A DNA stretch of 64,000 bases, taken from positions 186,001 through 250,000 of the forward strand of contig NZ_JAGJCF010000002.1 in the NCBI RefSeq assembly GCF_017815135.1, given 5' to 3'. Within the stretch, counting starts at the first letter, position 1; each line of letters opens with the position of its first letter. This DNA is from Jiella mangrovi. Its GTDB lineage: Bacteria; Pseudomonadota; Alphaproteobacteria; Rhizobiales; Rhizobiaceae. A model generated the notes under the pieces. That model worked only from the letters and a program-made list of their open reading frames with translations. It was not told the origin of the DNA and did not search any database. Shown piece by piece: positions 36,435 to 40,580 of this stretch. Both the position numbers and the translations under genes were made by a program.

Positions 36435-37721
36435 ATGCATCTCCTGCCGATCGCAGCGCTCCTCACCTCGACCTTCTTCATGATGGCGGGAGCCGGCCTG
36501 ATGGGCATTCTCCTGCCCGTGCGCGGCTCGATCGAAGGCTGGTCGAGCTACGAGATCGGCGCCTTCGGCACGTCCTACGCCCTCGCCTTCACCTTCGGCT
36601 GCGTGGTCATTCCGCGCATGGTCAAGAGCGCCGGCCATGTGCGCACCTTCTCGAGCCTGTCGGCGCTTCTGGCGATCTCGATCCTGTTCTGCGGCCTGAT
36701 GGTGGATTCGACGGCCTGGATCGTCTTTCGCGCGCTCTCCGGTTTCGCCCTGGCCGGCAGCTACATGGTCATCGAGAGCTGGCTGAACGAGCGGGTCACC
36801 AACGAGACCCGCGGAACGATCTTCTCGGTCTACATGATCGTCACCATGGCGGCGATGATGGGCGGTCAATACGCCATGCCGCTGACAAATCCGGGCCTGC
36901 CGGTTCCCTTCATGCTTTGCGCCATCTTCTTCGCGCTGGCGGTGATCCCGACCGCGCTGTCGCGTGCACAATCACCGGCACCGATCGCCACGGTGAAGAT
37001 CGACGTTCTGATGCTCTTCCGCAATTCGCCGGTGGCGGCTGTCGGCATCGTCCTTGCCGGCATCCTGTCGGCGGGCTGGGGCAACATGGCGCCGGTCTTC
37101 GGCCAGCAGACCGGAATGACCACCACGGACATCGCGACGTTGACGGTCTCGGCGATGTTCGGCGGCGCGATCTTCCAGATCCCCCTCGGCCGCATCTCCG
37201 ACAAGACCGACCGTCGCTATGTCATGACTGTGGCAGGCATCATCGGCGTTGGCGCCGCGATCACCGGCGTCTACCTCGCGGGCGCGCAGCCCTTTGCGCT
37301 GTTCTGCATCGCCTTCGTCCTCGGCGGGATCATCTATCCGGCCTATTCCCTCGCCGTCGCCCACGCCAACGACTATGCCGCCGACGCCGACTTCGTGAAG
37401 GTCTCGAGTGGCCTTCTCATCCTTTACGGCATCGGAACGATGATCGGCCCCATCTACACCGCTTTCCTGATGGACGTCGGCGGGCCAGGAGGCCTTTTCC
37501 AGGCGATGGGTTCGGCGATGGCGATCTATGCTGCCTATGCCTTCTACCGGACCTTCCGCCGTATCGCGATCCCGGCCGAGGAGAGGGCGGACTTCCAGAC
37601 CATTCCGTTCGCCCGCGTCCAGACACCGGCGAGCTTCAGCCTCGACCCGCGGGCCGAGGCGAGCCTGGAAGCCGAAGCGGAAGAGGTCGATGCGGAGGAC
37701 ACCGGTCGGGAGGCGGCCTGA
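36435..37721 (+). CDS. MFS transporter (YcaD-like)
   Basis: The 428-residue protein has about twelve hydrophobic segments and MFS loop motifs: FGCVVIPRMVKSAGHVR after helix 2 and GRISDKTDRRYVM after helix 8. The ESWLNERVTNETRG segment after helix 5 is characteristic of the YcaD/YfcJ-like group. The substrate is unknown. ATG 36435 is taken; the ribosome-binding site is weak. A charged Ala/Glu tail (about the last 25 residues) extends into the cytosol. It is monocistronic by spacing (287 bp before, 403 bp after). Confidence 0.9.
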   Translation: MHLLPIAALLTSTFFMMAGAGLMGILLPVRGSIEGWSSYEIGAFGTSYALAFTFGCVVIPRMVKSAGHVRTFSSLSALLAISILFCGLMVDSTAWIVFRALSGFALAGSYMVIESWLNERVTNETRGTIFSVYMIVTMAAMMGGQYAMPLTNPGLPVPFMLCAIFFALAVIPTALSRAQSPAPIATVKIDVLMLFRNSPVAAVGIVLAGILSAGWGNMAPVFGQQTGMTTTDIATLTVSAMFGGAIFQIPLGRISDKTDRRYVMTVAGIIGVGAAITGVYLAGAQPFALFCIAFVLGGIIYPAYSLAVAHANDYAADADFVKVSSGLLILYGIGTMIGPIYTAFLMDVGGPGGLFQAMGSAMAIYAAYAFYRTFRRIAIPAEERADFQTIPFARVQTPASFSLDPRAEASLEAEAEEVDAEDTGREAA

Positions 37722-37893
37722 CGGTAGCGTGACCCGTTCGGTGACTGCCAAAGACCGGTTGCGGCATGGTCTGACAGGCCATCGATGGTGCGGCGCACGC
37801 TTTTTGTCGTAAAACCGGCAGCGTTCGCGAGCGTCAGCCCATCGATGATCGCAAGCCGGCACGATAGCTTTCGTCTTTTTCCGATCATGTGAG

Positions 37894-37920
37894 AACGGGC
37901 GGGCCTCTGGCTCGCCCGTT
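37894..37920 (+). terminator. Terminator downstream of the MFS gene
   Basis: AACGGGCG and CGCCCGTT form a perfect 8-bp stem with an 11-nt loop, followed by TCC. It lies 172 nt after the MFS stop and probably isolates that gene from sulP. Confidence 0.5.
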
Positions 37921-37978
37921 TCCATGTCGAGCCCCGTATACCGACTTGCGGGGCGGCTTGTCGCGTCACCCGGACTTG

Positions 37979-38101
37979 ATCTCGCATCTGCGAGATGTCA
38001 AAAAGACGGACCAAGGACCCATTGAATTGGGTGGCTATGCCGGGCGCCGATCCCCCGGCCAACCTTTGAAAATTTGCGTTGCCCCGGTTCGGGGCGTTTT
38101 T
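37979..38101 (+). promoter_or_regulatory. Structured leader of sulP, candidate riboswitch/attenuator
   Basis: Between the MFS terminator and the SulP start I find an ordered set of stems: 37979-37996 (ATCTCGC/GCGAGAT, 4-nt loop), 38017-38032 (ACCCA/TGGGT), 38039-38059 (GCCGGG/CCCGGC, 9-nt loop), and last a perfect intrinsic terminator at 38081-38101. The third stem's flanks (GGTGGC and GCCAACC) can form an alternative, partly overlapping helix. A terminator 23 nt before the start codon, with structured RNA ahead of it, is the classic layout of transcription attenuation. Rfam's sul1 motif, described from alphaproteobacteria upstream of sulfate transporter genes, is the first family to test; I could not confirm the match by eye. 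Confidence 0.55.
38081..38101 (+). terminator. Intrinsic terminator just upstream of sulP
   Basis: GCCCCG-GTT-CGGGGC is followed directly by GTTTTT. It ends 23 nt before the SulP ATG and after the leader stems, so transcripts of sulP must read through it. The nearest upstream gene ends 360 nt earlier and has its own terminator-like stem. Confidence 0.8.
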
Positions 38102-38124
38102 CTCCGCGCAAGCTGAAGATATCC

Positions 38125-39609
38125 ATGACTCGTATTGAAACACTCCGCCGCGAGTGGTTCGGCAATGTGCGTGCCGACGTTCTCGCCGGCCTCGTCGTTG
38201 CCCTGGCCCTCATTCCCGAAGCCATCGCCTTTTCGATCATCGCCGGCGTCGATCCGAAGGTCGGGCTCTACGCCTCCTTCTCGATCGCCGTGCTGATTTC
38301 CTTTACCGGCGGGCGCCCCGGCATGATCTCTGCCGCGACCGCCGCCACCGCAGTCCTGATGGTCACGCTGGTGCGCGATCACGGCCTGCAATATCTCTTC
38401 GCCGCAACGATACTTGCCGGTATCCTGCAGATGGTCGCCGGCGTTCTGAAGCTCGGCAACGCCATGCAGTTCGTCTCGCGCTCGGTGATGACCGGCTTCG
38501 TCAACGCGCTCGCCATCCTCATATTCATGGCGCAGCTGCCCGAGCTGATCGACGTGCCGCCGATGACCTATGTGATGGTCGCCGCAGGCCTTGCGATCAT
38601 CTATCTGTTCCCGAAGATCACGACGGCCGTCCCTTCCCCGCTCGTCACCATCGTCGTTCTGACGGCGATCTCGCTGACCTTCGACATGGGTCTGAGGACG
38701 GTCGGCGACATGGGCGAGCTGCCGGATTCGCTGCCTTTCTTCCTTCTGCCGGACGTGCCGCTCAATCTCGACACACTGCTGATCATCCTTCCCTATTCGG
38801 CCGGCATCGCCGTTGTCGGCCTGCTCGAATCGCTGATGACCGCACAGATCGTCGACGATCTCACCGACACCGGCTCCCGGAAGAACCGCGAATGCGTCGG
38901 CCAGGGCATCTCCAACTTCGTCACCGGCTTTTTCGGCGGCATGGCCGGCTGCGCGATGATCGGCCAGTCGGTGATCAACGTGAAGTCCGGCGGCCGTGGA
39001 CGGCTGTCGACCTTCTGCGCCGGCATCTTCCTGCTGATCCTGATCGTCGGCCTCGGCGACTGGGTCGCGATCATCCCGATGGCCGCCCTCGTCGCCATCA
39101 TGATCATGGTCTCGATCGGCACCTTTTCCTGGTCGTCCATCATCAATCTGAAGGACCACCCGCGTCGCTCCTCCGTGGTGATGCTGGCGACGGTGGTGGC
39201 GGTCGTGTGGACGCATAATCTCGCCATCGGCGTCGTCATCGGCGTGATGCTGTCGGGCGTATTCTTCGCCTCCAAGGTTGCCCAGATCTTCCGCGTGACG
39301 TCGGTTCTCTCGGATGACGGCCTCACGCGCACCTACCGGGTCGAGGGGCAGGTGTTCTTCGCCTCGACCGAACGCTTCGCCGGCTCGTTCGACTTCAAGG
39401 AGGCGCTGGACAAGGTGATCATCGACGTCGGTGCCGCCCATATCTGGGATCTTTCCGGCGTCGGCGCGCTCGACCGGGTGGTGTTGAAATTCCGCCGCGA
39501 AGGCGCGGAAGTCGAACTGCGCGGGCTCAACGAAGCGAGCGCGACGCTGGTCGACAAGATCGCCATCCACGACAAGCCGGGCGCACTCGACCAGCTCGGC
39601 GCCCATTGA
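38125..39609 (+). CDS. SulP family anion transporter with STAS domain
   Basis: This inner-membrane transporter belongs to the SulP/SLC26 family (sulfate, bicarbonate or other anions). The 494-residue product has about eleven to twelve hydrophobic segments, with [33 protein letters not shown] (helices 1-2), [17 protein letters not shown], and [25 protein letters not shown] (the helix 8-10 gate). A C-terminal STAS domain runs from about 405 to 485 ([21 protein letters not shown]). ATG 38125 is used. It precedes a Usp gene by 116 bp and follows the attenuator-like leader. The pairing with a stress protein and the leader suggest regulated anion uptake; the substrate is unproven. Confidence 0.92.
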
Positions 39610-39725: not shown

Positions 39726-40580
39726 ATGGAAAAGATCCTGGCCTGCGTCGACGGATCGGTCTATCGCGAGAGCGTCGTCGACCACGCCGCATGGGCCGCA
39801 AAGCGGCTTGGTGCGCAGGTCGAAGTGGTCCACGCGATCGGCCGGCGCGAAGCGGGCGGCGGCGCCTTCGACATGTCGGGCAATCTCGACGCGGACGAGC
39901 GCTCCGCGCTGATGGGCGAACTCTCCGAGCTTGACGAGAAGCGCGCCAAGATCGCCCTCAAACGGGGGCGTGTTCTGATCGACGAAGCGCTCGAACGCCT
40001 GAAGGCCGACGGCGTCTCCGACGTCACCAGCAAGCTGCGGCATGGCGACATTGCCGACACGTTGTCGGAGCTTTCCGAGGATGCTCGGATCGTCGTCGTC
40101 GGCAAGCGCGGCGAGGCGGCGGATTTCGCCAAAGGCCATCTCGGCTCGAATCTCGAGCGGGTCGCCCGCTCGGCGAAACGTCCGCTGCTGGTGACCTCCA
40201 GAGCCTTCAAGCCGATCGAGAAATTCCTCGTCGCCTTCGACGGCGGCAAGAGTTCGCAGCAGATCATCGAACGGCTATTCGCAAGCCCGCTCCTCAAGGA
40301 CGTGCCTTGCGAGCTGTTCATGGTCGGCGAACCGAGCGGGGATGCGGGCCATCGGCTGCATGAAGCGGAAAAACGTCTGCGCACGGCCGGCTACAAGGTT
40401 TCGGTCTTTACCGAGGAAGGAGACGCGGAGGAGCTGATCGGCAAGAAGGTCGAGCATGGCGGCATCGACCTCGTCGTAATGGGCGCCTACGGCCATTCGC
40501 GCATCCGCAACTTCATCGTCGGTTCGACGACCACCGAGATCATCCGCCGCTGCACCGTCCCGGCACTGATCATCCGCTGA
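39726..40580 (+). CDS. Universal stress protein with two Usp domains
   Basis: The 284-residue cytosolic protein has two tandem UspA folds. Domain 1 (about 1-145) starts EKILACVDGSVYRESVVDHAAW and has GKRGEAADFAKGHLGSNLERVAR. Domain 2 (about 150-284) starts EKFLVAFDGGKSSQQIIERL and ends with the ATP-binding signature GAYGHSRIRNFIVGSTTTEIIRR, consistent with GxxGxx(9)GS. The start is at 39726, where GGGGAGG precedes the ATG at ideal distance; an in-frame ATG nine codons upstream lacks this. It probably shares the sulP transcript and ends in a strong terminator. Confidence 0.93.
   Translation: MEKILACVDGSVYRESVVDHAAWAAKRLGAQVEVVHAIGRREAGGGAFDMSGNLDADERSALMGELSELDEKRAKIALKRGRVLIDEALERLKADGVSDVTSKLRHGDIADTLSELSEDARIVVVGKRGEAADFAKGHLGSNLERVARSAKRPLLVTSRAFKPIEKFLVAFDGGKSSQQIIERLFASPLLKDVPCELFMVGEPSGDAGHRLHEAEKRLRTAGYKVSVFTEEGDAEELIGKKVEHGGIDLVVMGAYGHSRIRNFIVGSTTTEIIRRCTVPALIIR

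Follow-up and report, generated by a model that had tools for sequence, protein, structure and literature searches.

A sul1 leader RNA before a SulP anion transporter gene in Jiella mangrovi: a candidate sensor with a terminator in this species and a start-codon helix in many relatives

The 64,000-nucleotide stretch of Jiella mangrovi DNA analysed here (the window) contains on its forward strand a gene for a SulP family anion transporter with a STAS domain (38125-39609; PF00916, E = 5.5e-56; PF01740, E = 4.4e-11), whose product falls below the NCBIfam cut-offs for sulP, DauA and BicA. The gene is followed by one for a universal stress protein (USP; 39726-40580; PF00582, E = 3.5e-33), probably the second gene of the operon, and a USP gene follows SulP in 47 of the 74 related loci whose sequence extends 2.4 kb or more downstream. 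Just before the ATG of SulP, at 38115-38119, a weak Shine-Dalgarno-like GAAGA may assist ribosome binding. The upstream MFS open reading frame ends at 37721, and among the open reading frames of the window none lies between that end and the stem of a terminator that precedes SulP. The preliminary description of this DNA had placed the MFS end 360 nt ahead of the terminator and a separate stem behind the MFS gene, and both are present, the stem at 37895-37919. A sub-threshold match to the tpke11 sRNA on the reverse strand (37866-37938; 23.3 bits against a cut-off of 43) spans that stem and is probably due to chance.

As judged from its sequence, the region before the SulP gene is a cis-regulatory leader that belongs to sul1 (RF03058), a known family of riboswitch candidates. 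The candidate aptamer covers 38012-38064 on the forward strand and all model positions (1-56 of 56), scores 59.6 bits against a gathering cut-off of 36.2, and is the sole above-cut-off Rfam match that cmscan returned in the 64-kb window. It is the only sul1 copy of the genome, and the SulP ATG lies 60 nt past its end. The preliminary description had named sul1 as the obvious known candidate, which proved right, and had allowed that the element could be new, which a full-length match to a known Rfam family contradicts. The comparison with Rfam that it had suggested also disposes of a SAM riboswitch, since none of the nine Rfam matches up to E = 10 in 37700-38300 belongs to a SAM family. The window shares with the family the full-length match, the two hairpins, the invariant bases, the alphaproteobacterial relatives and the downstream SulP gene, and differs from the model in a short first hairpin, with 53 nt instead of 56. 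Compared with other sul1 leaders it has a strong intrinsic terminator, as few of them do, and lacks a helix, P3, found in many relatives. The sul1 discovery paper is reportedly that of Weinberg and others (2017), and features reported here may already stand in it.

The two hairpins of sul1, P1 (38017-38032; five standard pairs in the window, with T-T as the innermost pair) and P2 (38039-38059; loop CGCCGATCC at 38045-38053), emerge both from folding and from covariation over 86 aligned cores, taken from 157 distinct ones after exclusion of similar cores. Standard pairs make up 96.6% of the pair cells in these cores, against at most 57.7% in slid structures, a control that retains kinship; the covariation score was reached by none of 500 shuffles, which ignore it. 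Changes on both sides occur at nine of the 12 pairs, and the closing pair of P2 swaps between C-G and G-C in 35 of the 86 cores. The conserved features GGACC, GGGTGGCT and loop CGCCNATCC accompany the two covarying hairpins, and the P2 loop and the GGTGGCT linker are almost invariant. A lack of covariation across related leaders had been named beforehand as a refutation of the proposed element; for the aptamer, covariation was found. All three stems that had been described ahead of the terminator exist in the fold; the first of them (37979-37996) is not part of the conserved RNA, the other two being P1 and P2. Several further elements were discarded. A possible pseudoknot of GGTGGC with the P2 loop was not counted because both sides are nearly invariant and hence uninformative, and a closing helix CAAGG/CCTTTG from the fold of the window was dropped, as it is not seen in the letters of congeners. 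Leader-peptide attenuation was rejected: the short open reading frame of 10 codons that starts at 38037 in the window is not conserved, its ATG being missing where the bases read GGCTACGCC or GGCTCCGCC (four of nine genus leaders) and in the GGCTCTTCCGG form.

The first stem belongs to a conserved upstream block, TTGATCTCGCA...GCGAGATGTCAAAAA (37976-38004, forward strand), which precedes sul1 as TTGATCTCGCA-NNN-GCGANATGGCA and is conserved in sequence in all nine aligned genus leaders. In the single congener that lacks sul1, where no match appeared up to E = 1, this block persists together with the bases just before the SulP ATG, and the block is therefore independent of sul1. It is probably promoter or operator DNA rather than a part of the RNA. 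Ahead of GGACC, 168 leaders show a preference for T at -43/-42 and for A or T at -20 to -18, which looks like a promoter with a start near the 5' end of sul1. No sigma-70 consensus site was found in 37700-38300 of the window.

sul1 was found in nine of the 10 genomes of the genus, 69 of the 151 of the family and 80 of the 397 of the order. At the level of the class it occurred in 11 of 385 genomes, nine of these with matches above the cut-off; another order gave 32 of 246, two small orders 3/7 and 2/6, and the family of a Chthonobacter-type genome (G657) seven of 20. These counts are lower bounds, the larger searches having used stricter filters; the search for further exceptions in the order of G126 covered six genomes. 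None of 14 control genomes had sul1. Among the carriers are the laboratory species Cereibacter sphaeroides and Sinorhizobium meliloti.

SulP stands next to sul1 in 179 of 185 evaluable loci. This denominator derives from 202 listed places, of which 188 were retrieved and three set aside (L012 and L013, below the cut-off, and L038, whose contig ends after 132 nt), and it includes L020 and L040 as SulP loci although their SulP start could not be set. Of the 14 places outside the count, 11 from the family adjoin SulP by coordinates, while those of G530, one of G1112 and that of G1140 were left unjudged. Within the family, 75 of the 151 genomes have a close SulP, with at least 56% identity to that of the window, 69 with sul1 and six without. 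All 69 sul1 carriers are among these 75, so no genome of the 151 has sul1 without the close SulP type, and sul1 is absent from each of the 21 genomes with only a distant SulP (at most 47% identity); G806, with a broken SulP fragment and no sul1, was excluded from both groups. sul1 is linked to one SulP type.

Six of the 185 loci, all above the cut-off, have no SulP next to sul1. Four of them (L096, L098, L099 and L101) are held by two Chthonobacter-type genomes, G535 (Chthonobacter albigriseus) and G657 of the same genus. sul1 precedes an unclassified gene in L096, an unclassified gene and then an MBOAT acyltransferase in L098, and a PF01757 acyltransferase in L101. In L099 (L174, 10001-10057), from Chthonobacter albigriseus, a PF13469 sulfotransferase follows sul1 at a distance of 293 nt, and this genome lacks the close SulP type. 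The fifth locus (L117; L176, 3881-3935), of genome G689, has sul1 before a sodium/proton exchanger, and the sixth (L076; L177, 7540-7595), of genome G906, before an MFS gene behind a SulP relic. The beginning of SulP survives in this last locus, where it scores 62 and the best shuffle 46, whereas the others are at background for SulP relics with the exception of L101 (44 against 38), where the trace is out of frame and contains a stop. No close SulP was found in G535 or G689, though both carry sul1.

Plasmids, picked from BLAST lists, add further targets. Their 20 sul1 copies with annotated neighbours stand before SulP in 16 cases, an NYN gene in two, a gene of the cyclopropane-fatty-acyl-phospholipid synthase (CFA synthase) type in one and an acyltransferase in one; L242, L243, L244 and L246, which have no annotation, were not judged. 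The NYN-domain gene follows sul1 directly on pMl1 of S. meliloti (L230, 1335-1385) and on a plasmid of Paracoccus liaowanqingii (L248, 2978-3036), and both plasmids have a second sul1 before SulP just downstream. On a plasmid of Agrobacterium tumefaciens MWF001 the order is sul1 (L241, 5644-5696), the CFA-synthase-like gene, SulP and USP; the same plasmid has a match to the ar35 sRNA at L241 6748-6869. On a plasmid of Paracoccus sp. MC1862, sul1 (L249, 1664-1719) precedes an acyltransferase in a glycosyltransferase cluster, with 36.7% identity over 297 residues to the Chthonobacter one; since the two are related, polysaccharide acylation recurs as a target in two orders. The Chthonobacter-type partner is that of G657, where sul1 stands ahead of it at L172 10001-10058.

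The targets bear on what sul1 may respond to. The sulfotransferase points to sulfur and the remaining targets to surface or stress functions, hints that together do not fix the ligand. The sulfotransferase did not hold as a conserved target, as a contig scan for it found Chthonobacter albigriseus, the genome of the query itself, and no other. The non-SulP targets, few in number and in part relics, led to the rejection of sulfate as a certain ligand. The same list of targets bears on whether the ligand is a small molecule at all. A protein could bind sul1 instead, making it a protein-binding attenuator or an autoregulated leader; the core is short (about 53 nt) and formed by two simple hairpins with invariant single-stranded stretches, and nearly all copies precede the same type of gene, as autoregulation would predict. 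Rfam, however, types the family as a riboswitch, and sul1 also precedes NYN, CFA-synthase-like, acyltransferase and sulfotransferase genes and occurs without a close SulP in G535 and G689, which makes binding by SulP itself unlikely. Recognition by a protein is thus an improbable reading in our estimation.

Between sul1 and the start codon of the window lies an intrinsic terminator (38081-38101, forward strand), with the stem GCCCCG-GTT-CGGGGC at 38081-38095 and the tail GTTTTT at 38096-38101, identified from the sequence, by a terminator scan and against shuffles. The preliminary description had reported a perfect terminator 23 nt ahead of the SulP ATG, and it is indeed there. Could it be a part of an upstream transcript, or a chance hairpin, with no role in the control of SulP? 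Terminator-like sites arise about 0.7 times per 600 bases on both strands, and 37700-38300 has two against 0.7 +/- 0.8 in shuffles, so that such a site as such says little. Yet the interval between the MFS end and the stem holds no gene, and chance accords poorly with two further results: the score of the terminator was matched in only 20 of 5000 dinucleotide shuffles of 38065-38127, and a hairpin occupies the same place, with changed letters, in nine of nine genus leaders (-5.1 to -11.8 kcal/mol, with arms chosen by eye). A terminator foreign to SulP control is hence very unlikely. The tail is less constant, being GTTTTT in the window, ATTTTCC in the congener leader L087 and shorter or shifted in the other genus leaders, and only two of the nine passed the terminator criterion. 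Over the family of leaders, terminator-like sites ahead of the start were counted in 24 of 169, mostly weak, against 5.9 expected from shuffles; the terminator is commoner than chance in sul1 leaders yet a minority feature, not a family rule.

The most stable fold of the window leader holds P1, P2 and the terminator together, and consequently no switch is needed for termination. The 5' arm of P2 could also pair with the 5' arm of the terminator, at -14.1 in the window and between -6.8 and -15.2 across the genus, but P2 and the terminator combined are stronger than this putative alternative. An antiterminator GGCUAUGC/GCGUUGCC, suggested by a truncated fold, was dropped because it is non-complementary in L087. 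The layout of a transcription-controlling riboswitch that had been put forward for this leader therefore stands in part: the window fits it, with the terminator between sul1 and the ATG, whereas the rarity of terminators among sul1 leaders and the coexistence of aptamer and terminator in the best fold speak against it.

In many of the other leaders, the 3' end of sul1 pairs with bases just before the start codon to form the helix P3. The Rfam model ends before this helix, which lies outside it. Over 169 of 177 leaders, eight with a spacing outside 44-112 nt being excluded from the P3 and terminator counts, the native pairing gave -14.6 kcal/mol, while swapped partners gave -11.3, shuffled ones -11.8 and coding sequence -10.8, without correction for kinship. 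Under the same condition only 21 of the 169 leaders beat all 40 swaps, with 4.1 expected. The letters of P3 vary by clade while the pairing stays (ACGCA/TGCG; ACAACA/TGTTGT with CACATG/CATGTG; CACAG/CTGTG; GAACC/GGTTC), and the last paired base is usually 4-20 nt ahead of the start codon. P3 is missing from the window, where the pairing reaches -8.4 and shuffles give -13.4; within the genus, L163-L165 have some sign of it, three of 30 shuffles being as strong, and the other six leaders have none.

These observations are best accommodated, with a probability of about 0.6, by a sul1 sensor with two outputs, a terminator in this species and, in many relatives, a helix at the ribosome site. Transcription would most likely start just upstream of sul1, so that the RNA of the SulP-USP operon would carry sul1 as its leader, beginning near the sul1 5' end. 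The fold with two hairpins would be the candidate sensor of a small ligand or ion connected with sulfur metabolism or the uptake of anions. In J. mangrovi, this sensor would most likely set how often RNA polymerase stops at the terminator, 17 nt past sul1 and before the SulP start; in many relatives the same sensor would appear to act on translation through P3, a helix that the pairing comparisons support.

A serious rival to the two-output sensor is a constitutive terminator: sul1 would act on translation here too, or only sense, and a ligand-independent terminator would lower SulP expression or release a short sul1 RNA. This reading is possible, though on the doubtful side. It gains from P3 near the start codon in many relatives, from the joint presence of aptamer and terminator in the best fold of the window, and from a precedent in S. 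meliloti, where the part of the metA study available describes a strong terminator downstream of a translation-regulating SAM-II riboswitch (PMC9373788). For that terminator, according to the same portion of the paper, the authors could predict no aptamer-driven antiterminator (PMC9373788). The window itself offers no obvious translation switch, since P3 is absent and 13 nt separate the U tract from the Shine-Dalgarno-like bases downstream of it.

A more elaborate form of the sensor model, which we propose tentatively and consider rather unlikely, would make sul1 a genuine riboswitch for a small ligand. Its working unit would extend past the Rfam model to include P3, with the ligand controlling the ribosome site; the genus of the window would have lost P3 and moved to a terminator. 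The ligand would be sulfate, bicarbonate or an activated-sulfate nucleotide, acting as a central sulfur or anion signal, and is proposed as central rather than specific to uptake because sul1 also precedes sulfotransferase, polysaccharide acyltransferase, NYN and CFA-synthase-like genes.

The divergent outputs proposed here for one compact aptamer class have a parallel in the alphaproteobacteria. For S. meliloti, as far as the portion of the study consulted describes, the prediction was transcriptional control by one SAM-II riboswitch and translational control by another (PMC9373788), both layouts being reported among its metZ and metA examples (PMC9373788); the window has no sequence match to SAM-II and no SAM family up to E = 10. 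The gene pair itself is that of the mobile SulP-UspA modules of Acinetobacter plasmids, in the sections available of their description (PMC6449649), and the SulP of an A. pittii plasmid is 66.4% identical to that of the window. Unlike the window, the three regions from gammaproteobacteria that were scanned (L233, L234 and L235) gave no sul1 match up to E = 1. SulP-USP pairs are common on gammaproteobacterial plasmids, and 1721 plasmid records of all taxa have a SulP match. RF03058 is among the riboswitch classes used for a classifier, in the part of that work seen (PMC7371854), and a search of the open literature returned no paper on sul1 function or on its binding of a ligand free of protein.

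The comparison described here supplies a basis for bench tests, namely a longer construct that runs through the start codon with P3, and one associated SulP type. The contrast between species is useful in the same way, with an output that resembles termination in one species and control of translation in others, and the short list of non-SulP targets narrows the candidate ligand. Sensing of an anion or of activated sulfate, should either prove to be that ligand, would be unusual for an RNA.
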